A DNA stretch of 64,000 nucleotides. Source: Sycon ciliatum. Taxonomy: Eukaryota; Porifera; Calcarea; Leucosolenida; Sycettidae. Below the pieces are notes generated by a model. It did no database searches and was not told the origin of the DNA. It saw only the letters and a list, made by a program, of their open reading frames with translations. The stretch spans positions 6,772,524 through 6,836,523 of the forward strand of contig NC_088647.1 of NCBI RefSeq assembly GCF_964019385.1. Reading direction: 5' to 3'. This document shows positions 1-47,850 of this stretch, piece after piece; the first letter of the stretch is position 1; each line of letters begins with the position of its first letter. The position numbers were made by a program, and so were the translations under genes.

Positions 1-3000
1 GGGGTGTGTCCAAAACAGATCCATAGTGAGTCTTGTTGCTGGTGTATATGTGTAACAGGGTTCTAGCGTGGACAGAAGGTGGTGGTGGTAGGGGTGTGGG
101 GAAACAAACAGTGTACCTCTTTTTCTTTTCTTTTTCACGTTCCACTATTGCCTTGTCACACAAAATTCGACGAGCACCCAGAACGATTGATTTGTGACCG
201 CATTCTCGTTGAGTGACCTGAATATATATATTTTTTAAATGAGCAGAGTGGTGCGCTATCAAGAGTAGGGAGCACACCATCAGAGTAAGGGGCATTGCCC
301 CCCCCCCCCCCCCTTTGGCTAGAACCTTGTGTATTTATGTTGTTGTAGTGGTAGTTCGATGCTACCTTGTCTTTCATATCTGTAATGATTGACACTGAAT
401 CGTAAGTGTGATGGCAACCCGTGAAATGATGGCAATGCTTGGCCTAGAAATTGGCAAGCTAAAGTAAAGATAAGGAGCCGTCCGTAAAATTCAAATAAAA
501 AAGGAAACCCGGAAAGTGGAAAGTTGGAACTGCTTGTCGGCCGCTAAAGCGGCAGGCAGGCTTTGAGATTTTCAGCACACTCCTCATGGCAAGCTTGCAG
601 AGGTAGGGTTACAGGCTAGGTTGGAGCACCATTGGGTTAGCTTTGAACTCCAGCATGTAAACACTGCATGCCTAGCTTCAAGCTACAACACTGCATTCCA
701 TAATAATCATTTCATTTGACAATCGGGTGGGACCAAAATGCAGGGCTACTGCCACCTGCTATCTTGAATTAGTAGCAGCTAGAGACAGTCATCCAAGTAG
801 CCCTTTATGCAGGAGGCCTTCCTTAATTTAATAAAAGGGTTTTGAAGTGTTCACCCCATCACTTGGCGTCAGGCTCCATTGTGTCGTATGACCTGTGTTC
901 CCTCCACTAGTGCACTGTTAACATGTTGCCTCTGATTACTTATTGCTACTTCAAAGTTCAATGCTGATTATTGGTCACAGCTAACTTACTTGTGCAAGCA
1001 TGTCCTTTCACTCACTGGATACTGCACTGCACTGCACTGGTACACTGTACTAGTTGTTGTGGCTGTGCATGTGGGTGTGAGTGTGTTTGCACTGAAATGC
1101 CCAAAGGTAAGTACCCGGGATATTTCAGCCTAGTGTTGGCATCTGTCTGGCTCCGTGAGCCACTAGAATTCTGATATTCCGTCATTCACATTCACGACAC
1201 ATGCGATCATGAATGACGTATCAGGCAGCTCTGGAGTACTCAGTGGAGCTCTGCAGGAGTTTTCGAAAGGGAGAGGCTTTGGCAATGGTGTTTTCAAGTG
1301 CGTGTGGACAGACTTGTTTGAGTGTGGTACAATCATTGTATCCGGCCTGGCACTCAGTTACATCTGCTGGACCTAGTCAGCTAGTGCATGTTCCAAAGCC
1401 ATGTACATGTACTTACAAAAAAAATTAGTTTTAGTCGTGATACATACCACCAGACAGTGGCACCATGTAGCACCAGTTGTCGTGTTACTGTTAGGGTTCA
1501 ACCTTCTTTTCACATACATGTACGGATGTACCGATGTATTGGGTTAGAAAAGTTGCCTGACGATTGAAAGACTCAAGAAACTCGGAGTAGCAACGGATTG
1601 TGTTTTCTTGGGGAGGACCGCTTCCAGTTCCATTGTGTACTAGCTCCAGTGCACCCCATGCCCAGCGCTGTTGAGCCCTCTTTGCGGTGGACTGGACCAC
1701 TTCCCCCTGTGTACCAATGTACTAGTATTAGATAGATAGGCCGTGTTTGACAAGCTGTCAACGGGATCACCAACACCAGTGGCAATTATGTGGTAGTGCT
1801 TCTGCTATGCGTGATCAAGGTGATGCGCTACCAGATATGCACCTGAGAGATAACAATAATGATCACAATAATTATGTATAGAAACATAGGGCCTAGGGGA
1901 GGAGATATAAAAAAAAAAGAAAAGAAAAGGGGGGGGGGTGGGAGTATACAAAGAGTATGATGAACACTACGTCCACAACACAAAACATTAGTAAAGCAGG
2001 ATTCATCATTGTTAGGATCATCCCCATGCTCATTTTCTGAACATTCATCGGAAACACCTGGGTGTCGCCGCCGTGCGGGTGGATCGATCTATGCCTATGG
2101 CCCAGTACTACCAGTAGGCAGTAGATCTAACTTCTAAGGCTACTAACTAAGGCCAGTGGTACTTTGATCTGCAAGGGTCGCGATACGAAACTCACAGCGA
2201 AACGCTGTGGCTATGCTATCACCAGATCACGCCAGTATCAGCGTGACATCGGAGGGAAATGATATGGCAGCCACGGGGACCGCGTACCGGGCGATAGTAT
2301 TGACTATTGTGATGTGAGGAATTGACCCATGTTTCCGACCGCTGATCATCAGTCAGAAACCGCGATCGTTTCTGTACTGTCTTTCAAGTGACTGAGAACT
2401 CTCAGTCTGAGTGAAATCTGAGCGATCTGGTGCGAAGGCCACATCGTTCGCGTGTAAACATCGCATTGATCGCACCCCTTCGATTAGATGGTTTTCGGCA
2501 GCAGTAGAAAATGCCAGGGGTTCAAGTAAATAATAAGTGACCGGTATTACGTGGGCGAAAGTTTGTAGTTTTCTTCTTTCTCTGTGGGTAAGTATTAGTT
2601 AGTTTGACTTCACTCGGCTGTTGAGCAATAGATCATTATGCGCAGTCAGACTGCCTCCTGCCTGAGTCCTGGTTCAGTTGTGTTTCGCGAGGTGCGCACG
2701 AGACGTGCTTTCTTTCCTGGAATGGTTCGTTGTACACAACAGCAACCAGTGGCCCGTGGCCCCCTTATCGTCCACGCGTTCGACGTAGACACTTATGTTA
2801 TTAGCAAGAGTAGTACTCTTGTTATTAGTAATTAGACAGACGTAGTTCCATCTGTGAAAAAAAACTTGGGAGAGCTAGAGTGAGTAGAGAACCGGCATCG
2901 CGCCTACATCGAGCGTGGAGTACACGTACCGCCGTCAGCCGGTAAGTACAGTATTATACAGTGCGAGTTAGTTCGTGTCGTCTGTCGAGTGCACTTTCAT

Positions 3001-4621
3001 CCTTGCTGTCCTCGCTTCATCATAATCAGATAATAGCCGCGTCACACTGCATGACTGTATCAATGTAGTCGCAATTTTGACGTTGCATTGTTTCCTGCGC
3101 TTCCGACCAAGCGTTAGCCAAGGTTCGTCAGGAGAAAAAGAAAATTCTGTGAGCGTGTTCCGTGTGCTGCTGAAGCTAGTGAAGGACTCTGGAGTCTGTC
3201 GTGATCATTACCGAAGTAAGAAGCGTTTGTATTCTACATTTAACCAGATGGAACCGTTGGCACTTGTCAAAACAATGAACTGACAGTGACCATGTACTCG
3301 AATCCTGCATCGTCCAAACGATCGAAACTGGTTTTTAAAACATGTTTTTCGTCTTGGGTGGGCGGTATGGAACTTTTGATTTCGGTTTATCGATGAGTCT
3401 TTGTGTGTGTGTGTGTGTGCGTCTGTGTCTGTCTGTCCGTCTGTCTGTGTCTTTGCAGTGTTTTTGCTTTCGTTGCCCGAGACCAGACGACTCAGCGACA
3501 CCGCTGTCGCATCTATCGGTGCAAGATTTCCGGCAAGAAGATTGCGCGGGTCCTGCGCACAGCCTGCGACCAGATCCTGCAGGAGCGCAAGATGAAGCAG
3601 GACGGCGTGGAGAAGCCCAGGACGGAGGACACCATGGACGGTGTCATGTACAACACGCCGCGCAGCGGAAACGCACCGCCGCTCGTACAATCACGCTCCT
3701 CCTCGTCGTCGTCAGCAACGATCGGCTCCGACAGCTCTGCTGGCGGGTCGTCGACGCAAATAGATCGCTCGGCAACACCGGACGGGGCTGTTCAGGCACC
3801 CGAAGAGAGTACGTTGATAACCATAGACACATGGCCCGGGTATCCTAGTGTGTGCAACATGAACACAAATTGTTTGACATTGTTGGCCAAACTGGCAATA
3901 CCAGGGCTGCCACACTTGGAGGGAGACGAATCTGACAGGGGTGCGGGGGTGTCCCCGTCGGGGGTGCAGGGGGCAGGGCCCCCGCGGTGAATTTTTTTAA
4001 GAAAATGGCTTGCTGTTGGGGCCCCAGAATACAGCACGCGTGCATTTTACAGCTACATGTACATGTACAATGACCGGCCAAACGCGACCTGGAAGCGCCG
4101 AGTTAATGGCCAACTCGACTAAAAAGCGCTCAAAATAAAATAATCGATTGTCCCTCTTCGGGACCAAAATCTGTCGGTTTGTCGGACAGGCGATCAAAAA
4201 TCGGACAATTTCCGAAAAATCGGAGCAAGTGGCAGCCCTGCAATAGATGCACAGTCATGTAACTACCTGAGCTGCATACATGGTATGTCTGCGAAAAAAA
4301 CCCGCATCACGCAGGAATGGTACTCGCAATCTTTCGCTCAGAAAGCGTTAGCCATGTCACTCCACAAAATGGTCCCAGTGATATAGATAATGTCGCTCCA
4401 CCAAAGGGCCCACTGATATAGATGACTACTGTAGGCCGTTGCATGATCTGCATGGATTGCAATGATGAAAAGTCTGAACTCCTAATGAAAACACTCACCT
4501 TGGTGTCCATGATGTAATGATGAGAGTGAGCAGTAATTTATACTGTTGTGTTGCTCTCTGTCTGTCTCTGTATGTTTGTCTCTGTCTCTCTCTCTGTGTC
4601 TATGTGTCTCCTTATCTCTCC

Positions 4622-4677
<56 letters not shown>

Positions 4678-6725
4678 CTCTCGCTCTCTCGCTCTCGCTC
4701 TCAAGACATTGACCCGTTACTTCGGGAGCACAAGGAATGCTTTGCTGCAACGTATCTCGGCTTCACCGACGTCCCATCTAGTTCCGGTAAGTATGCGTGT
4801 TGACATTGGTCCAGCTTCGGACTAAAACATATTATACCCTTTGTAGTTTGTAAGGGAGACAATGATTATTGCAGTTGTCTAGACTATGTATGGTGTCCAG
4901 TTTTGGCACGGTGATAATGTTTGGCAGCCTGGGGGTTGGTCGCCGACAATCAACAACACTAGTACCGTAGGAACAAACTTCAAAGTAAAAAATCAATAAA
5001 AACAAAAACAAAAGCAAACAGGGCGCTCACGAAGGGCTACCACTCGAAACACACTGCTAGTCACTAAAACTGTTTTCAAAATATTGATCAACGTTTTTGG
5101 TCTATGGCTATCATCAGCTAACTAGCGTTACAGGCATGAAGCTGCAGCTGCAGCGAGTGTCCAGACTGGTCTTACGTGATTCTGCATGTGATTCTATTGC
5201 CGTGATGCGTGGTCATGTGTGCAGGTGTGGAAACCATTCGCAATGCAGTCAGCAAAATGCAGCACACCTCACAGGACAACTGGGTGGAGGTGATCGTGGA
5301 AATATCGTCGGTGAAAATCGCCCTGATTGATCAAAAGGTGAGGGCGTCAAACATGGTCGAATCACGCAGCATATCATCCTAACCATACACATCATGCTAA
5401 CCATACACATCATCCTAACCATACACATCATGCTAACCATACACATCATCCTAACCATACACATCATGCTAACCATACACATCATCCTAACCATACACAT
5501 CATCCTAACCATACACATCATCCTAACCATACACATCATGCTAACCATACACATCATCCTAACCATACACATCATCCTAACCATACACATCATGCTAAGT
5601 ACATGCCATAGTACTGTGTCAGGCTGAAAGGCTAGGACGATAGCTACAACGGTCGAACAGCTGTCTGGAGGAATATTGTGTTTTACCAGTTGTAAGTCCG
5701 GGTATAAGTCGACCCCCAAACTTGGGGCCTCAATTTACCGGTTTACGGGCAGTTCTACCCCGGTTATAAGTCGACTACTGTAAGACCAGTAATAAATAAT
5801 AAATAAAATTCACGGTTCGCGTGAGACTCGGCTGCAAGCCGAGTTTTCCGCATCCGCCATGGGAACGCCACCACCCTCTAGGATCAAGGCGCAGGTGCAG
5901 CGCCTAAACGGTGGGAGTAATGTTAACGAGAGCATTTTAAACATCTTGTCTTACAGTGCTACTTCCCTTTTTAGGTCATTAAAAGGTCATTAAAAGGTCG
6001 ACCTATAACCGGTAAAATATGGTATTACCACCAGTATGGAATTACATGCTGGTCGTTTGTTGTGTGAGTTTGCGAGAGTCCAAAGAGACGGGCGTGTTGG
6101 GTCATCTTTGAGCGCATTCTGGGCCTATAAGAAACTGAATTGTCTACCGCCTCCACGTCGCTTATTCATTACCTGCTGTGTTGACTTCTTCACAACAACA
6201 GTCCTACAATGGTTTATTCGAAATGTTTGTCCTTCTTGCAGACGCAAGTGACTTTCAAAGAGCACCGGATTCGCTTCCTCACCTTCTTGGGGATGGGCAG
6301 TGACACATCGTAAGTACAGTGCACCGACAGTTCTACACAGACACACCTGGGTTTAACGACCACTTTTGCTTGCACCGTGGGGTGGTCGCTTAAACCAGGT
6401 TTTACTGTAGTACTAGTAGTGTAGGTGTTTGGTTGTTTATAAATGTTTACAATAGACTGAGTGGAATAATGGATGGAATACCAGGTTGAATACCAGCAGT
6501 GTAATTGCAACATGCACCTGATGGAGAATCCAGCTGCTCCCATTGGTGAAGCTTGCAGTTCCTGTCGACTTGGATAGTCAAGTTTTGGTCAGGGAGGTAG
6601 GAAGTGGGTGTTCCAACGTAGGTAAGAGCCAAGTTCTCCAGTATCACTGCTGAAGTCACTACACCTTGATCTGTGTGGCCGTGGCATTGCAACAATTGTT
6701 TCTGTTTGGCCAGGGTTACCTGTGC

Positions 6726-6783
<58 letters not shown>

Positions 6784-9700
6784 ATGTGTACATGCGTGTG
6801 TATACGCGCATGCACATACCCGTGTGCTGCACAGATACTGTGGATACATCATGAGCAGTGGCAAGGACAAGTTCTGGTGTCACGTATTCCTCTGCGAGAA
6901 GACCAGTGGCAAGCTGGTGATGGCATTGCAGAGTGCGTGCAAGGTAGGCGCACACTCTCAGCCGGGGCTCATCGCGGATGGGATGCTTTGAAGCATCAGT
7001 GTTGCTTTCCCTCTGCCGGGTTCATGCATAGTACGTGTACAGCTCCAGTTAGTAGTGACGTGTACATAGCAAGGAAGGGAATCTGCTCAATGCTCATACC
7101 CTCGAGCACCTGGTAATTCAGGAGAAGCATGCTGTAGATCAGAAAGTTGTAGAGGAGAAGCTTACTTTAGATGGAGCACTGTGTCTACAGGGGCGCCGGA
7201 AGGTATTTTAGTGTGGTACGGTCAGCCATCTGAAGTACAATTTACTTGTGGGGGAGGGATGGCTGAGCCGGAAAATTTGGAAATTTAGAGCCCAGATTAG
7301 TGTATTTTATTGATTCACGGGGTGACTGGGACAAAAAGTGGTACGGTCAATACCGTAGTGACCGTACCATGTGCAATGCCCCTGGTCTACATACACTGAT
7401 GAGTGACTGGCAAACTAACCTGTTTCACAGCTCTGTTGCGAACACTTGCCCCATGGCTTGTCCTTCCCACTCTCCTCCAGGCTCGTTTCCAGCGTGTTGT
7501 GGACACGCAAGATACGGAGGAGAAGGCGGACCACCTGGTGAAGAAGTACCTCAAACCCGCCGCCACCCCGGCTGCACCGACGTCATCGGACGACGCACCA
7601 CGGCCTACGCCGGCTCCGCGTGCACCAAAACCAACTGTATCAAAACCGGCACCTGTGAGTTACAGTCCAATACCATAGAGTGGTTTCACATCTTTGGTCA
7701 TGTGACTAAATTTGTGTAGAAAGTGATCGGGTCATGTGGACAGTGGAACCAACATGGCTGACGTCACGTGACCCATAGATGCAGGGTTTGAATGGAGTTG
7801 GAACCAACATGGCCGATATCACATGACACATAGATGCAGGGGTTGAATGGAGTTGGAAGTTGGAAGCAACATGGCTGTCCCGCATGGTCATGTGATAGCT
7901 GTGAAACCAGCACTCTATACGGTGACAGTAGTACGTGTTGCTAGACCTGTGTTAGCAACCATTCCGATACGAAACCATGTGTATTGTAAAATTGTTTTAC
8001 TTTTAAATTTTCTAGGGCCCTTCCGCTCCTGTAAATACTTGGAACATGTACTTCAAGTACTGAAGACTGCCATGTATGTGCGTGTGCGTGCGTGCGTGTG
8101 TGTTCGTGTATCTATTCATGTCCACCTACTCGCCTCCAGGAGAGTGCGTTCTTGTCGGTACTGCAGAAGCTGAATCGTGTTGCTGGCCGACCAGCGGTGA
8201 GTCTGCTCACTTAGTCGGTACATGATGCATAGCACTACTGTTGATGGCGTGTTGATGGCGTCACGTTATCCGTGATGTCGTGTGTTATTGTCTTATTGAT
8301 GGTTTGTACCCACGTCTGGGATTGGGTTAGGATTAGGGTAAGGACTTTGGTTGCTGAGGCAAATGTGATGGTGAAGAGGAGATGAGTACTGTCCTCTATA
8401 ATAATAATAGTAATATAATGTCAAGCTGACAAGCTCATTGGAACAAAAGGGCTCTAATGCCTCCTGGTTCTGTGGTCATAATTCTGCTGGGATGACGACT
8501 ACACCATAGCTCAGTGGTTAGAGCATCGCTAGCTACAAGCGAGGGTCCCTGGTTCGAGTCCTGGTGGTGACAGTCAATTTTTTCTTCAGACTTTTCCCGT
8601 TTGTGTCTTTCCCTCAAACTAGTCAAAATTCTCCACGAGCTACCTATACCATTGATGTTAGCCGTGTTCTCTAAATGATCCCTTTGTTGTTTGTTGCAGA
8701 CATCTGGCAACAATACTTACTTTCTCTCCGTCGCCGCTAAGTACTACGGAAGTGAAGATGTCTACACTGCCTCGGCCGGTGTCAAGTACGTGCAAGAGCC
8801 GTTCAAGGTAAGCAGTGGCTGCGGTTCCATCCTTTGAGGCTGGCTAGTGCGTTGATTTTTATTTTATTAATGCGATTAATAGTATTAGTGAAGCGGACAT
8901 TACAAAATGATGAATGAGAATACATGTATCTAAAATGGTTGTTCCTAATCGATTTTCTTGAGACTATCATCAGGGAAAATCGTCTCACAATAGAGGCTAC
9001 ACGGAGAAACAAACTACTTATAGGTTATCGGATAGTGGGAAGTATACAAGGTGAGGTGTGAAAAAAAAACTAAAGTGGGAGAGAAGACGAAAGAAATTAG
9101 AAGAAAAGATGTGAGAGTGTTCTGACGGTGTGAGCTACTACATAAGGTGAGTGAAATGAAGGCGTGGAAGCAGGTGGATGTGATAGAGTGAGGAACTGTG
9201 AGGTGTAGCCTCTATTGTGAGACGATTTTCCCTGATGATAGTCTCAAGAAAATCGATTAGGAACAACCATTTTAGATACATGTATTCTCATTCATCATTT
9301 TGTAATGTCCGCTTCACTAATACTATTAATCGCATTAATAAAGTTATTGTCTCCTCGTCGCCTTTTGATTTTTATTTTGTTTAATACCGTTCAGCTCCAG
9401 TATGGTATGGGTTGTCACTACATGTATTCGCTGCCGGTGTTGAGACCACAGTGAAGCCTGTCTAAGACGACCGCTCGAGGGACCTTCACAATGTGGTCTC
9501 TGTTACCAGGTGGTCTCCTTATCCAGGGCCACCAGTCTGGAAATAGCATCGCTTGTCCTGGTTCCAATGCAGTTGGCGTCATGCTTGTTTGTACTCAGTT
9601 GTTACAAAGTTGTCAACGACCTGACGTCACACTTCGAAGCCCTATTATAGGCCATACACACGGAGTAGAAAAGAGAAGAAACGAAGATTCTTTGCTAGCA

Positions 9701-12700
9701 ATGCAATGAGACTGGCAATAATGATTGGTATTAGAACCCTGGTGCTAGTCACTCCGTTCTTGTGCAATGTGTTGTTTCATCTGCCCTTGCAGAGGTTAAC
9801 CAGTGCTGGCCGCGTACCCGTGAGCTGCAAGTGCGAAGTGGACTCCAACGGCGTGCACCTGTCCGACGCAAAGTCCAAGTTTGACTTGTGGTGTCCAATT
9901 GACAAGATCACGTTTGTCACCGTCATCAGGTACTAAAGCGGTATTACATCGTACAGCGCTATACGGGAAGCAATCACAAAACCACTGCCCATGGCATGGC
10001 ATGCAGTGTTTGTGCTGCGATGTTGGAATATTTGTACAAGTACACCATGCCGCACACAGTCACATGCACCCACCCATACACATGCACACTTGTACTTGAA
10101 CTCATTGTGTGTCATGTATTTTTGATGTTGAAACGTTTCTTCAAAGAAAGAAATGTATTGTCGGCTGATGGATCCTATGCCTACGCCGGGCAATACATGC
10201 ACGTCGCTCCTTGCACGGCGTTTCCTGCAAAGTTATATTCCGTCAACAGCACGACACAATAATATACCTACTTGGGTGTTAAAGGGGAAGTTAAGGCAAA
10301 AATTAAAATTTCACCAGTTGTAGTCTTCGGGGTGCTGAGTCGAATGGTCGTGGTCCGAGGAAGCTGAGACGCTCCCTTCCTACTTGAATCCCAATCGAAC
10401 TCGCGTACTTCCACCGAAACTGGGTGACTGCGCCCTACTAGATGGGGATTTGTATGCAAAATGTCACTAAAAGCGCCATTTCGTTCTTATAAAAGCACGG
10501 ATGACCGCGATTGGCCCATGTGTTGTAGTCTTTTGGACGCTGAGTCGACTGGTTTTGGTCCGAAAAGGCTGCGATGCAGCGTTCCTCCTTTATTCCCAAT
10601 CGAGCATGGTTGAAGAAGCAGTCACGTGCTCCTGCGTACACCAGTCACCTGGTCACCGTGCCTGCAGGGTACAACTTACTAGCCTGTTTGACCTTTTTTG
10701 GGTGCAGTCCTGTCACTCGAGTTGAACTCGAGTTGAACCTTGGTGTGAAAGTTGTCACCTGCTGGCGTGGTGACCAGGTGATTTGGGCACCCAGGACCAC
10801 GTGACCGCTTCTTCAACCATGTTCGATTGGGAATAAAGGAGGAACGCTGCATCGCAGCCTTTTCGGACCAAAACCAGTCGACTCAGCGTCCAAAAGACTA
10901 CAACATATGGGCCAATCGCGGTCATCCGTGCTTTTATAAGAACGAAATGGCGCTTTTAGTGACATTTTGCATACAAATCCCCATCTAGTAGGGCGCAGTC
11001 ACCCAGTTTCGGTGGAAGTGCGCGAGTTCGATTGGGATTCAAGTAGGAAGGGAGCGTCTCAGCTTCCTCGGACCACGACCATTCGACTCAGCACCCCGAA
11101 GACTACAACTGACCCGCGCTCTGCGAAAACCGACCTTAGGTGCTTCGTAATTTTTTCGAGAAAAAGAACAAAACGTCACGATCTGTCGATTTTTGAAGAT
11201 TACAAAGTGAGAGTCATGGCGGAACGAAGCAGAAGACGGTCGCTAGCTCAAATTGCTGTGGGCTTCTCCCCAGAGGTTTTAGCCGAACTCCTTCACGATG
11301 AATAGTCATTTTTTGGCCTGGTCCAATCGCAGTTCTGATGACAGCAGTGCCGAGGAGAGTCGGATGTGGAATCGCACGATTTATCGCAGGACGTAACGCT
11401 GATCGAGCTGGACGGTGATGCGGAGGAGAATTTCGATCAGGCGTCAGTTCTGCCACCAGCCCACCCCCTCAATGCCGGCAATATACAGAGTGCAGACCAA
11501 GAAAAATCGGTTCAAGTACTGTCTACAATCCAGGAGGCGCGTGACAAGTTAGTTTGACAAGCGCTGTAGGTGTTCCGCACTGGTGCTGTTTCAAGAGCAT
11601 GACACTTGAAACCTTGCTTACACTTACAGCGCACACAGCGCAGGTCCTGATCAAAACAGATTGCTACTTGTGTGTAGGCGGAAAGCTAGACGTGCTCAGG
11701 AGACGTGGTGAGGCTACCCAGTGCGTCCAGCATGCTGGGAGATGTGATAGATGGGGCTCAACAATACTACTCTGAACTACTAAGTACAGTCAGTGGCTGG
11801 TGTGGAAGTCATGTACATGCATGTCAGGAAGTCTTTGTGTGTGCCCCCAGGATCAAGCCCTGGGTGCTGAAATCTACAGGCTGCTGTCAGTGCAAGTGAA
11901 ATCAGCCCAACACAGAACTCTGGAATGCACTGCCTGTGGAAGATGTTGTGGAGCTGAAGCATTTTATAGAGCATTATGCTATGCTAGTATTATGCTATAG
12001 TTCATGGCCTCCCTTATTAACCTGCGGCTCCACATGGGCACAACAAGCCAGTACCAACCTACATGTATTTGCCCAGTATCACTACGAAGAAGCTTGTTCA
12101 CCAGGCGTTCACAAAGCCTGGTGGCAAAGCTGCATACAGTACGTTTGGCAAGATTTGGATTTGATATCACGGATTACGAAACAATGTGTGTGGCTGATGT
12201 AGACATAACTAGATGTTCTAACTACCAGTACCAGATAAAACTATCAATATCCTTTAACCCGGCATTGATCTTAGCTTCTTCACTACTTTGCACCTGCCTC
12301 TACGCATCATTTCGGCTGGCATATCCTCAAACAGAGCCAAATACCTCTTCCACCAGATTCGTGAGCAACACCATCCACAGAACAGAGATAGAATGTGTCT
12401 ATCTCCACAACAGGAAGATCCAATGCCATCATAAACCTTTCCTTTTGAGGATTATGACATACAGATTTATTCTGCAAAGTTTGGTTGCAATCATCCTGCT
12501 TGAATTCTCATAGCATGGGTTCCAAAATGTAGCATAAAATCCTGGATTTTTGCTATTTTTCCTCCAAAAATTGCAGAAAAATTGCAAAGAAATTGTCATT
12601 GTATCTAACTGAATATGTATGCAATCCACCTAAAACTTCACCAGAAGTTGAAGAAAGGGTCATGGGTCAACAATCCAGCACAAACTCAATTTCGCCAAAA

Positions 12701-15700
12701 TAGCACCTAAGGTCGGTTTTCGCAGAGCACTGGTCAACTGGTGAAATTTTAATTTTTGCCTTAACTTCCCCTTTAAACTTTCCTAGGAGTGATCTGCTGT
12801 GTGTATATGCAAGAGTACATGAAACCCAGAGTGTGCAGCTTGGGGCCTTTTCTACTATGGGTGTCTGTGATTACATCATATTTGGCGCAGATCTGAGGCG
12901 CGAAATGGCGTAGTGTGTACAGCTGAACTGCAGTTGTGCAGAAAAAGACCTGCTTGAATCCTGCTTGTACGCACTGCATCACTAAAATGATGTTATCATG
13001 CCGTGATAATGTAATCAAGCCGTGATAGCAACCCATCCGAGCTGCACACTCTGGTTTTCATGTACTCTTGGTATAATGTGTACGTGTGCGTTTGTCTGTG
13101 TGTCCCAGCAATCACATCTGCTTCATTGCCGACTCCAGCGGGCACAACCTCTGCCACGTGATAGGCCCAGATAAGGCAACGGTGAGTGCCATGCATTCCC
13201 AACCACGCCGAACACCACTGCAGGTTAACGTCCGTGCAAGGGTTGCTTGATTTTTAGCGAACCGACTGTGCATTTGTATACCGCAGGCTTTCAACGCACC
13301 TAAACAATAATAAACCCTTTTTGAGGCAAAGACTTTCGGTGGGGTCCGCCAATGAATACCGACCGAGCCTTGCACAAAAGCCGTATTTGAATGGAAACAG
13401 GCCTCTAATAGAAGCCGCATTTTTACACAAATCAAATCGAAAGCTGCAAAGTAGCCACGGCTTCAAAACGTGACAACACCGGTGCAGTGCAGGGAATAAT
13501 ACGATATGGCCAGGATCGTCTTGTGTACAAAAAAATTCACGTTTCGCGTGAGACTTGGCCAAAGGCCGAGTTTTCCGCATCCGCAGGAACGCCACCCTCT
13601 CAAGGCTAGATGTATAAGGCGTCGCAGGTGAAAGTGATCTGTTGGTAATCGTATATACAGTCAACTTCGCTAATAACGACTTCGGATATAACGACAATTC
13701 GCGAATAACGACAGAATTTCCATGCCCAGAGCAAAGTCCCATCTAACTGTATACATTTAACTTCGGATATAACGACTATCTGAATAACGCCAGTTCGCGA
13801 ATAGCGACATGATTTTAGTGCCCCGAGGTCATATTCACTGCTTGAATACAGACTTTCTGGGTTTTTGACAGCTATTTCAAGTACCTGTCATGCAGAAGTA
13901 CCAGAACCCGTGGCGATGGATAAGGCACACATACAAGAAGATACAGCCAGGGGGGAGGGGGGCTTTTTCTTTTGCTTCAAAATACATGTAGTTGGAATGA
14001 TCAGTACATGTAGTTGTACATGATTGCACATTAATCTTCATACATGTACATGAACATGTCCCTGTAGATGGCTCCAAAAGGCTAATTTTTCAATTTATTT
14101 CCCTTGGATATTGACTTTATAGTTTCTTTCAATAGATGACTTGCACAAAGATTGTCTGGGTTCGAGACGGGGCAAGTGCACCTTCTGACTCTGACTTCCC
14201 CACCTTTTGAGTTCGTGACTTTCGAAGTTTCGCTTTTTGCCTGACGAACACTGAGCTAGTTTTTTTGGCTAGAGAGTAGAGTTGTTTTGATTCGGCTTGT
14301 ATCGTCATGCCGAAGCGCTGCTACGCTCATGAATGCACTAGCAGACGAGAGATGGAACTGAGGCTCCCATTCCATACGTTCCTTTTGGAGCCGGCCGGCC
14401 GGGAGGCAGAAAAAATGAGGGGATATTATTTTAGTATCATTAGTGTAGGCTGCAACAAGCACGTCGTGGTCCTGAAGTGTGACTACTTTCCCGCAGTGGA
14501 AGTGAAGTCAAGCACAACGAAAGTTTGTGGACGTCTGAGAAAGAACTCGATTCCCTTCGATTCGGCTGCACTAGCTCCAGAGCGACCCCAGTCTCCTGAG
14601 GACAGACTGCGGAGAGGCCAGGAATGGAAGCCCAAACCACGAAAATGAGGGGTGGAAGGACTGAGTGTGAGAGCCAGATGGCCTTTAGTAGTACTTCAAG
14701 TAGTATCTGAGTTGAAGGAGAGAACAAGTGTGCTGGAGAAACGCTGCGAAGTCCTCAGGCCTGATGTGTACTAGCTACTGTTGAAGTCTCACTTGTTCCG
14801 ATATGAACACTTCATCAGCCCTGACTCTGAGCAGCTGTATCTAGACTTGGACTTAGGCCAGAGACATAGCATTGTAAACCTTACTGAAGCCATTATGTAT
14901 CCAATGCCTGGCTCTAGTGAGAAAGCAGTTTGCCGCAGGCTCGCAAACTATGATTGAATCAGGGAGTGGTGGAAAGTCACATTATACCTCCCCATGATTA
15001 GTTGGTAATGACGACGATGCGGCTCCGGCTGGGTTTCAGTCTTAGAAAGGATTTGTTGGAGCATCATCAAACAGTGCATTCGCATTCATCATACACTGGC
15101 TCCGTTGCCTACAGTAATTCACATTTTGACGGGGCGCGCTGGGAGGATACGGAAGGAGCGGCGGGAACCATTGGAGTGCTCATGATGCTGGTTAGCGGAG
15201 ACCGATGAGTCAGGAACGGGAACGCAACCGCACTACTGTACAGATCAGGAAGCGATGGAAGAGTTGAAACTGCTCAGCCTTCCATGCCATGTACAGGGAC
15301 ACAAGCGTAAAAATGGCTACATTTCAAAAGTGAACTGGCGATGGCATTGTGTGGCGACGAACACAACTGCAACTGTTCAAATTTCAGCATTTCGAACATT
15401 ATGCTTCCCATGATAACTCACCGAATGGCTCACATGACGGAGTTGTACATTACCAGGCTAGGATTATCATTTGCTATATTTATGGATAGTCCTTGAGTTT
15501 TCAGATGAAGTGCTTTATCTTTTACCTGTCGTTCCTTTAGTATGGCACAATGTCCATGGCTGCTTCCTTGTCTTCATAACAGACTGGTATAATCAGCATG
15601 ATTCTGCTTTTTTTTAGAAGAAATAAAACTTTCCTTTGGGAAAGGAAGCCCAGAAACGTCAACCCCCATGGACTGTGCTTTATGACTCTCGTCCATCGAC

Positions 15701-16817
15701 GTTAACCGTCGCAATCAAAATAATAGGAGATCCTCCAGATAGGCGTTAGCCTTTGGGTAATCCTGAAATAAAGATTCTTATTATTAATAACTGCTGCATG
15801 TATGTTGTGCTGTGCGAACCGTACAAGATTTTTACAGCTCACCCACGCTATATCCCGTACCGTTAGCGTTACATTGAATATGAACTAGGCTAGCACAGTT
15901 ATCTGGTTATCCTTCGTTCTTTTGATGGCGGCGGGTAGCATGGAACTTGACGTGTTCTTGGGATCCTCGTGCAACACTTGCTGTTCCCGGATGCCATATT
16001 ATTGGGTGCATCGAGGTTGCTTCTATGCTCACTGTTGTTTAGTAAGACAATTTTTTATAACTGTTTCACCGAAGAATAAGGCAAAAGTATTTTGGGTTGG
16101 TTTGGACGCCTGGCTTCTCTTCACATAATAATACAGTCATGTACTTCCACTCAGGGAGTAGTACAATACCTGCTTCCACTAACCCTACAAGTGCACATGC
16201 ATGACTCATGAGCTGCTGAAGACAGTGACGGTACTGATCATGTACATGTACATGCCGTGCACCGTTCATTCATGCTGACACTAGTCTACAGACGGTGTAG
16301 GGTGCCCGCAGTGTAGCCTGGGTGCACAGGGTGCACTTGCCCCGTCTCACTCGCGGCTCGGATCTTTGTGCAAGTCATCTATTGCAATACGAAAATAAAG
16401 TACAAATTGACGTGGAGCATGAAAAGAGCTTCATTTCGATATGCATGTCATACTATACAAAATATGGGTTCACATACATTCAAATGGGACTTCGGATATA
16501 AGGACACTTCGCGAATAAGGACACTTTTCTGAAGCCCCGCCGAATGTCGTTATTCGCAAAGTTGACTGTACCTCGGCAGTGTGCAAGACAGCACATATGG
16601 AAGCCTGTGGAAATCCGAGAAATTTTGCAAACACTGTATTCCGCAGCGTTTGTGCCCGACTTGGTGGTAGCGTGTTGATTGTGGTATTGTTGTGCTGTGT
16701 GTTGCGGTGTAGGTGTCCCTAGCGGGAGTGTTGTCCAGCATTGAAGCAGCCATCGAGGAGCACGCAGAACGCATGTGTGGCGGACGACAAGTCGTGCTCA
16801 ACGACACTTCCAAGTAA
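1..16817 (+). CDS. Fe65/APBB-like adaptor with three PTB domains (5' end outside window)
   Basis: Twelve exons join in frame: 1-25, 3459-3808, 4706-4786, 5225-5337, 6242-6309, 6835-6943, 7481-7654, 8140-8196, 8700-8807, 9793-9929, 13109-13181, 16713-16817 (stop TAA 16815-16817), giving 465 aa in the window. All introns are GT-AG and all phases agree. The first 25 bases read WGVSKTDP plus two bases of a Tyr codon; exon 2 continues FAFVARDQTTQ, matching the late strands of Fe65 PTB1. Exons 3-7 form PTB2, with the Fe65-like stretch RIRFLTFLGMGSD and the C-terminal helix ending SACKARFQRVVD. A Pro/Ala linker follows, then exons 8-12 encode a third PTB-like domain (AAKYYGSEDV, NGVHLSDAKSKF, IDKITFVTV, HNLCHVIGP, final helix). 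Known Fe65 proteins (WW plus two PTBs) bind APP-type NPxY tails and act at membranes and in the nucleus. The WW domain and PTB1 start would lie upstream of base 1. Family call is firm; the third domain is by pattern only. Confidence 0.82.
26..3458 (+). other. Intron 1 of the Fe65-like gene
   Basis: A 3.4-kb interval between the partial first exon (donor GTGAGT at 26) and the PTB1 exon (acceptor AG at 3457-3458). It holds a poly-C tract at 299-314, short purine and (TG)n runs just before the acceptor, and no coding signal I can support. Consensus-like donors at about 2585 and 2941 have no recognisable exon in front of them. Confidence 0.6.
3900..4242. mobile_element. MITE with CAGGGCTGCCA-type terminal inverted repeats
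   Basis: The left end begins CAGGGCTGCCACACTTGG and the right end is its inverted counterpart AAGTGGCAGCCCTG. Similar CAATA bases lie on both sides, which may be a short target duplication. It sits in the intron between the PTB1 exon and the next exon. No coding capacity. Confidence 0.55.
4619..4702 (+). repeat. (CT)n microsatellite abutting an acceptor site
   Basis: A CT dinucleotide run directly precedes the AG of the exon starting at 4706, so it serves as the polypyrimidine tract of that 3' splice site. Confidence 0.9.
5373..5597. repeat. 18-bp minisatellite, about 12 copies
   Basis: The unit is CATCCTAACCATACACAT, with a recurring C-to-G variant (CCTAA/GCTAA). Copies are otherwise nearly identical. 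It starts about 35 bp after the donor of exon 5225-5337, inside the intron. Confidence 0.92.
5691..6024. mobile_element. MITE-like element with TATAAGTCGAC inverted ends
   Basis: GGGTATAAGTCGACC and CCGGTTATAAGTCGAC on the left are mirrored by GTCGACCTATAACCGG on the right. Between them lies a dispersed segment (about 5805-5925), also found at 13533-13630. Intronic; no coding capacity. Confidence 0.45.
5805..5925 (+). repeat. Dispersed repeat, copy 1
   Basis: Shares GCGTGAGACT-GG, CGAGTTTTCCGCATCCGC and GGAACGCCACC with 13533-13630. The CAGCGCCTAA-CGGTGGG end recurs at about 50398-50416 within a tRNA-derived repeat, so this may be part of a SINE family. Confidence 0.55.
6346..6408. mobile_element. 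Short hairpin MITE remnant
   Basis: CCTGGGTTTAACGACCAC is followed closely by its inverted partner GTGGTCGCTTAAACCAGG. This is a 60-bp foldback in the intron after the exon ending at 6309. Confidence 0.45.
6727..6782 (+). repeat. (GT)n microsatellite
   Basis: About 27 GT units, ending roughly 50 bp before the exon that starts at 6835. Confidence 0.92.
7744..7870. repeat. 55-bp tandem repeat, just over two copies
   Basis: The unit runs from GGAACCAACATGG to GGTTTGAATGGAGT. Two copies differ at several positions and a third partial copy begins GGAAGCAACATGG. Intronic. Confidence 0.75.
8497..8572 (+). repeat. tRNA-derived SINE head (tRNA-like, probably not a functional tRNA)
   Basis: An A-box-like TAGCTCAGTGGTTAGAGC and a B-box GGTTCGAGTCC stand at tRNA spacing. 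The anticodon stem TCGCT/AGCGA pairs perfectly. However, the loop AGCTACA lacks U33, the T-stem has a central mismatch and the acceptor stem has two mismatches. The segment lies in the intron before exon 8700-8807. Confidence 0.55.
8863..9342. mobile_element. Foldback element with identical 140-bp arms
   Basis: Arm 8863-9002 and arm 9203-9342 are exact reverse complements by eye, separated by a 200-bp spacer. A 14-bp direct repeat TTGATTTTTATTTT lies at 8852-8865 and 9365-9378. No ORF. It sits in the intron between exons 8700-8807 and 9793-9929. Confidence 0.85.
10281..12774. mobile_element. Large foldback transposon, interrupted by a second element
   Basis: The ends AAAGGGGAAGTTAAGGC and GCCTTAACTTCCCCTTT are inverted, and TTAA occurs at both borders (10279-10282, 12773-12776). 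The arms, about 10318-10625 and 10804-11110, are near-perfect inverted copies. Each arm is itself two degenerate direct repeats (motif GCTGAGTCGA-TGGT at 10337 and 10540) and carries a TATAAAAG box. A second copy at 45617-46480 has no insertion. Here a 1625-bp element occupies 11111-12735. Confidence 0.8.
11111..12735. mobile_element. 1.6-kb inverted-repeat transposon nested in the foldback element
   Basis: About 34-bp terminal inverted repeats share GCTCTGCGAAAACCGACC followed by TTAGGTGCT. The element is bordered by the direct repeat AACT (11107-11110 and 12736-12739). In the related copy at 46436-46445 the junction reads ACTACAACTGGTGAAA uninterrupted, which is the empty site. Short ORFs occur inside (for example 11215-11305 and 12004-12513 on +), but I recognise no transposase; it may be non-autonomous or decayed. 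Confidence 0.8.
12809..13073. mobile_element. MITE with CAAGAGTACATGAAA ends, uninterrupted copy
   Basis: The ends CAAGAGTACATGAAACCCAG and its inverse (TTTCATGTACTCTTG) bound about 265 bp. The internal sequence matches 28986-29061 joined to 36413-36596, the copy split by the BEL element. It ends just 36 bp before the exon at 13109. Confidence 0.82.
13533..13630 (+). repeat. Dispersed repeat, copy 2
   Basis: Same orientation and core as 5805-5925 (GCGTGAGACTTGG, CGAGTTTTCCGCATCCGC). It lies immediately before the pogo-like inverted-repeat end at 13658. Confidence 0.55.
14307..14648 (+). pseudogene. Possible THAP-type zinc-finger remnant
   Basis: The 113-codon frame begins MPKRCYAHECTSR, followed by LPFHTF and, after an unalignable middle, KCDYFPAVEV and GRLRKNSIPFD. 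This loosely follows the THAP order (Cys-x4-Cys, later Cys, basic stretch before a Pro). The spacing is broken and the CxxH pair is not convincing. It lies inside a transposon, which fits a decayed transposase-derived THAP domain. A chance resemblance is possible. Confidence 0.3.
15640..15790 (+). repeat. Non-LTR retrotransposon-like 3' end
   Basis: A run ending GGGTAATCCTGAAATAAAG then TTCTTATTATTAATAA resembles a LINE or SINE tail with a short AT microsatellite. The body is not recognisable. Confidence 0.35.

Positions 16818-18283: not shown

Positions 18284-47850
<29,567 letters not shown>

Follow-up and report, generated by a model that had tools for sequence, protein, structure and literature searches.

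In and upstream of the window analysed here, a 64 kb stretch (G000:C5:6772524-6836523) of a 538 Mb genome, lies what is most likely an Fe65 (APBB) gene encoding the domain series WW-PTB1-PTB2-PTB3, in which the third PTB is predicted to follow a proline-rich linker in frame. PMC8304848 describes Fe65 as the link from APP, the Alzheimer precursor protein, to regulators of actin and to the activation of genes; the members of the family have one WW and two PTBs, a domain set that is there called conserved.

Fe65 identity of the gene

The gene was rebuilt from the raw sequence. The 64 kb of the window contain no N, and the 40 kb before the window were also examined. Exon coordinates are given as window positions, with negative numbers for positions upstream of it. 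On the + strand, eleven exons between 3459 and 16817 join with GT-AG borders into a single 457-residue frame that ends at a TAA, the border of the last exon (16713) being supported by its acceptor. If PTB1, which begins before the window, is included in full, the frame stays open over 554 aa up to this stop. The earlier note had described five further in-frame exons at 8140-16817 behind an Fe65-type PTB1 end and PTB2, and these are indeed present in the same frame.

PTB1 is spread over three exons on the + strand. The first (-647 to -486) was placed by tblastn and its splice join. The middle exon (-102 to +25) ends in GVSKTDP plus two bases of a Y codon at the donor TA/gtgagt, and the split codon is completed by the exon at 3459. 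Two Fe65 PTB1 queries matched this middle exon in tblastn with E values of 8e-4 and 0.002. The third PTB1 exon, exon 1 of the eleven (3459..3808), encodes strand 6 to the C-terminal helix, followed by a Ser-rich linker, as judged from Pfam, the PDB and the exon model. Its first 47 residues match Pfam PID at 1.8e-6 (model positions 96-138 of 140) and APBB1 PTB1 at 1.5e-6. The complete PTB1 matches Pfam PID at 3.2e-18, and its best solved structure in a PDB search is APBB1 PTB1 (2.1e-16, residues 1-139 of 144). The N-terminal half of PTB1 alone retrieved only designed helical repeat proteins from the PDB.

PTB2 is encoded by five exons, also on the + strand and taken from the exon model. Strand 1 lies in exon 2 (4706..4786), and the helix with strands 2-3 in exon 3 (5225..5337), both in agreement with the match to APBB1 PTB2. 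Exon 4 (6242..6309) runs to the end of strand 5 and is followed by a phase-2 intron. Strand 6 to the C-terminal helix is found in exon 5 (6835..6943), and the end of the helix, together with the proline-rich linker, in exon 6 (7481..7654), which is also backed by splice scores. The best solved match of PTB2 is APBB1 PTB2 (3.5e-20), and the top six matches are all APBB chains. As expected, no relatives of PTB2 were found in prokaryote genomes.

A WW motif of Fe65 type was found 6.4 kb upstream of the window, in an exon at -6531 to -6307 that matches PF00397 at 1.4e-7. Its link to the PTB1 exons is frame-compatible and putative. The recovery of the rest of PTB1 and of an Fe65-type WW exon upstream therefore identifies the gene, at the level of its sequence, as Fe65 (APBB) with the predicted order WW-PTB1-PTB2-X. 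This bears out the assignment in the earlier note, which had recognised the end of PTB1 and PTB2 and to which the APBB1 PTB1 and PTB2 matches and the upstream WW exon can now be added.

The order WW, PTB1, PTB2 is the same as in the Fe65 family (APBB1/2/3 and C. elegans feh-1), and PTB1 and PTB2 are each closest to the corresponding domain of APBB1 among solved structures. Where an Fe65 protein has exactly two PTBs, with PTB2 at the C-terminus, a further PTB-type module follows here in frame as an addition. The gene thus differs from the family by a third C-terminal PTB-type domain behind a proline-rich linker of roughly 70 residues.

Sequence relationships of the third domain

The third domain is encoded by exons 7-11 of the + strand, and its strands and helices were named by alignment. 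Exon 7 (8140..8196), which has strong splice sites in the exon model, encodes a linker or helix before the domain (ESAFLSVLQKLNRVAGRPA). According to exon model and profile alignment, exon 8 (8700..8807) holds strand 1 (FLSVAAKYYGSEDVY) and a helix (AGVKYVQEPFK), and exon 10 (13109..13181) holds strands 6-7 (NHICFIADSSGHNLCHVIGPDKAT). Strands 2-5 (RVPVSCKCEVDSNGVHLSD...PIDKITFVTVI) were assigned to exon 9 (9793..9929) by profile alignment; this exon has a weak donor, and a phase-2 intron comes next. Exon 11 (16713..16817), one of 17 candidates, encodes a candidate C-terminal helix (VSLAGVLSSIEAAIEEHAERM...) and the TAA stop.

Neither the full nor the trimmed form of the third domain could be assigned to a Pfam family. 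In the PDB it gave seven matches, five of them to Numb-family chains (E 0.12-0.87) and two to non-PTB chains; the reversed sequence, used as a control, gave one unrelated non-PTB match. We also built a broad profile from 11 PTBs that does not contain the third domain. It comprises PTB1 and PTB2 of the window, the PTB2 fragments of APBB1 and APBB2, and seven PTB stretches of the same genome. The genome has at least 13 PID matches (the window's own PTB exons are absent among the matches listed), of which eight were obtained as loci and seven, all but L005, entered the profile.

Against this broad profile the third domain scored 17.1 bits, with a P of 2.4e-7; 2000 shuffled sequences all scored lower, the best of them reaching 7.2, and the reversed domain gave no score. 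The aligned part begins with strand 1 and extends as far as the onset of the C-terminal helix. When the third domain was searched along with the window's 1438 open stretches (30 residues or more), its E value was 3.5e-4; the four other stretches within the inclusion threshold were all PTB1 or PTB2 exons of the gene, which are themselves in the profile. An HMM search of the product of 8140-16817, as suggested in the earlier note, has a divided outcome, with no match to Pfam PID but a clear one to the 11-PTB profile.

When the PTBs were used separately, PTB2 of the same gene gave the best score (10.5 bits, 0/2000 shuffles as good). A profile of this PTB2 and the two APBB PTB2s reached 9.1 bits, again with 0/2000 shuffles as good. 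The two APBB PTB2 fragments alone were equalled by 263/2000 shuffles, and PTB1 alone by 1001/2000. A profile of five other PTBs of the genome was equalled by 78/2000 shuffles, and one of the seven own-genome PTBs, taken without Fe65, recognised the domain weakly (15/2000). In pairwise local alignment, 3/1000 shuffles were as good as the third domain against its own PTB2, as compared with 524/1000 and 137/1000 against the APBB fragments. BLASTP of PTB2 against the third domain reached only E 0.048, and hhalign of the single third-domain sequence against three PTB2s found nothing (200/300 shuffles as good). Based on these comparisons, we conclude that the predicted third domain is a diverged PTB, which among the PTBs tried is closest to its own neighbour PTB2. 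The proposal that a third PTB-type domain follows PTB2 in frame is in this respect upheld, by the profile score and by the single open frame.

The same proposal had placed the added domain closer to tensin-type PTBs, which belong to the same general fold class. For this we found no support. PF08416, which we take to be the tensin-type PTB model, matched PTB2 only, and that below its cut-off. The third domain has no match to it at E values up to 10 with the speed filters on, its PDB matches are Numb-family or non-PTB chains, and its best score is with its own PTB2. We therefore reject a tensin-type origin. Numb-family PTBs are the best solved matches of the third domain, though only at E 0.12-0.87. 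Elsewhere in the genome lies another PTB gene (L001), which looks Numb-like, and its PTB alone barely recognises the third domain (118/2000 shuffles as good).

The strong divergence and the lack of a Pfam match would also suit a module of the PTB/PH superfold that does not bind NPxY and has a structural or self-inhibiting role, or a domain that ends in another last exon than the one at 16713. The C-terminal helix of a PTB lines the peptide groove, and in the third domain this helix is unsettled, with 17 candidate last exons. Against this stands the broad-profile alignment, which covers the domain from strand 1 up to where the C-terminal helix begins. We consider such a reading possible, though distinctly less probable than a third PTB of the Fe65 gene.

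Searched in all six frames with the third domain, the genome gave five matches, each of them on one of the domain's own exons; far-diverged copies could escape such a search. As expected, no relatives of the domain were found in viral contigs.

Position of exons 7-11 in the gene

One alternative is that exons 7-11 belong to a separate single-PTB gene just downstream, which the gene model wrongly fuses to Fe65. Splitting the model at this joint costs no frame, the intron there being of phase 0, and 8072-8083 is an ATG-to-donor candidate whose donor scores well. The open stretch that leads into exon 7 (8035-8196), however, contains no Met. Splice sites were scored with a matrix trained on exons 1-6 only and ranked as percentiles of the AG and GT dinucleotides within introns 1-9. 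Both the donor that follows 7654 and the acceptor that precedes 8140 score well, and the acceptors and donors of exons 7 and 8 all lie above the 98th percentile. Further downstream the values are more mixed: exon 9 has an acceptor percentile of 0.972 and a donor of only 0.667, exon 10 an acceptor of 0.847 and a donor of 1.000, and the acceptor of exon 11 is at 0.936.

The gap between the two putative genes is just 485 bases long (7655-8139), contains neither AATAAA nor ATTAAA, and is ordinary in CpG. The 3' end after 16817 is likewise unmarked, with no AATAAA or ATTAAA up to 18,500, so that the poly(A)-signal test is neutral. The G+C content at third codon positions is the same on both sides of the joint, 203/298 = 0.681 in exons 1-6 and 109/160 = 0.681 in exons 7-11, at an intron GC of 0.46. 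Together with the intron position in the third domain, which is similar to that in PTB1 and PTB2 (see below), this makes a separate downstream gene very unlikely.

A second alternative is that both forms exist, namely a canonical two-PTB Fe65 whose mRNA retains the intron that follows 7654 and which would end in ...PAPVSYSPIP, and the spliced three-PTB form. Reading through from exon 6 does reach a stop after 7 codons. This argument is weak, since most introns would soon give a stop. We regard the coexistence of the two forms as rather improbable.

The last exon

The 3' end of the model leaves more room. A filter for terminal exons of 15-90 codons with an acceptor percentile >0.90, located between 13230 and 17000, gave 17 candidates. 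With the broad profile, the third domain scored 20.5 bits when it ended in the exon at 14275, 17.2 with 15838, 17.1 with 16713 and 15.6 without any last exon. The Fe65 profile ranked 16713 first (9.6) and 14275 second (8.9). The exon at 16713 encodes a helix-like stretch, and so do other candidate last exons. The exon at 16713-16817 chosen in the earlier note keeps the frame and comes first with the Fe65 profile, but only third of the 17 candidates with the broad profile, and the C-terminal helix and stop of the third domain may sit elsewhere. As the domain still reaches 15.6 bits without a last exon, its identity is independent of this exon, and for that reason the rivalry between last exons leaves the odds of the three-PTB reading unchanged.

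Possible origin and function of the third domain

PTB1 and PTB2 are both interrupted by a phase-2 intron immediately ahead of strand 6, which corresponds to column 79 of the broad profile. A phase-2 intron also interrupts the third domain, at column 75, where a deletion of three columns follows two residues later. This similar position would fit a common descent of the three PTBs within the gene. We regard it as supportive and not decisive, because the alignment is gapped at this point and the profile itself contains PTB1 and PTB2. The third PTB is perhaps a duplicate of PTB2. It could have arisen by an internal duplication, likeliest of PTB2 together with its phase-2 intron between strands 5 and 6, that was followed by fast divergence.

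In mammalian Fe65 the APP tail, GYENPTY included, is bound by PTB2, which can also form dimers by way of its C-terminal helix (PMC5425604). In the genome examined here, one match to APP_amyloid exceeds the Pfam cut-off; the frame that contains it ends in ...GFENPTYNFFEHLQEEA. At L018 (G000:C10:1422732-1422887, - strand) the genome encodes an APP-type transmembrane segment and a cytoplasmic tail with GFENPTY. The classical partner motif of Fe65 is therefore present in this genome, whose Fe65, APP and Numb-like genes together suggest an animal. By analogy with known Fe65, PTB2 would bind the NPTY-bearing tail of APP, and PTB1 and WW would recruit the usual Fe65 partners. The third PTB could offer an extra docking groove for the tail of a membrane protein or for an intramolecular partner. 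It could also alter the self-association of PTB2, which in mammals uses the PTB2 C-terminal helix. A bridge between three NPxY-type partners and a restriction to one lineage, as put forward in the earlier note, are likewise conjectural. Provided that the gene is transcribed in this form, that the third domain adopts a PTB fold and that a peptide tail is its ligand, all of which we infer, the product is most likely a four-module adaptor whose additional docking site lies on the C-terminal side.

A more speculative scenario, and a doubtful one at present, is that PTB2 was duplicated in one animal lineage to give a hub with three PTBs, in which PTB3 partly regulates APP binding. Here, PTB3 might occupy or release the groove of PTB2, or bridge APP to a second NPxY receptor. 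If true, this would be a natural experiment on the control of the APP-Fe65 complex.

Fe65 has seemingly been lost in arthropods, and the phylogeny of the family is said to need further study (passages of PMC8304848). Among the matches listed in the open-licence literature we found no description of a third PTB in Fe65 or of the Fe65 architecture in early animals, and the passages of PMC11405698, PMC8304848 and PMC3082566 do not mention such a domain either. It is quite possible that databases already contain orthologues of this architecture that have escaped notice. Three PTB domains have been predicted in HMTK1 of Monosiga, which shares this number with the gene described here but is a choanoflagellate tyrosine kinase and not an Fe65; a WW domain is not mentioned for it in the passages of PMC3082566. 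The finding concerns a domain architecture rather than a novel type of system. An Fe65 with a third PTB would demonstrate that the valency of this adaptor can change, and would serve as a comparison case for the requirements of PTB2 self-association and APP binding.

Other features of the locus

From within the intron that splits PTB1 on into the exon at 3459, the window has a CpG observed/expected ratio of 0.97-1.28 in 6/6 bins of 300 bases (2101-3900), and GTAAG-type donors are found in this region at 2588, 2942 and 3216. The region may act as an internal promoter and supply alternative first exons, which would yield a form that lacks a complete PTB1.

Several repeats lie within the gene. 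The intron between WW and PTB1 contains about 2.3 kb of a near-pure ACT triplet repeat, ~766 units long (L012:6946-9260, window -3054 to -740). An 18-base tandem repeat (5334-5639) starts in the last bases of a PTB2 exon and comprises 12 register copies of a 108-base reference that are 69-100% identical. Positions 8500-8572, which lie in the intron that separates exon 7 from exon 8, resemble a tRNA (Rfam tRNA, 38 bits) and were called by ARAGORN as tRNA-Pyl with the anticodon cta. This element is probably the tRNA-derived head of a SINE and not a suppressor tRNA. Two foldbacks are found in introns of the gene, one with 140-base arms that are 100% complementary (8863-9002 and 9203-9342) and one with 363-base arms that are 96% complementary (10315-10677 and 10749-11111).

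Elsewhere in the window, a 2066-codon open frame on the + strand (29477-35677) belongs to a retrotransposon of BEL/Pao type, with Pfam matches to Peptidase_A17 (1.1e-45), RVT_1, Integrase_H2C2, DUF1759 and DUF5641.
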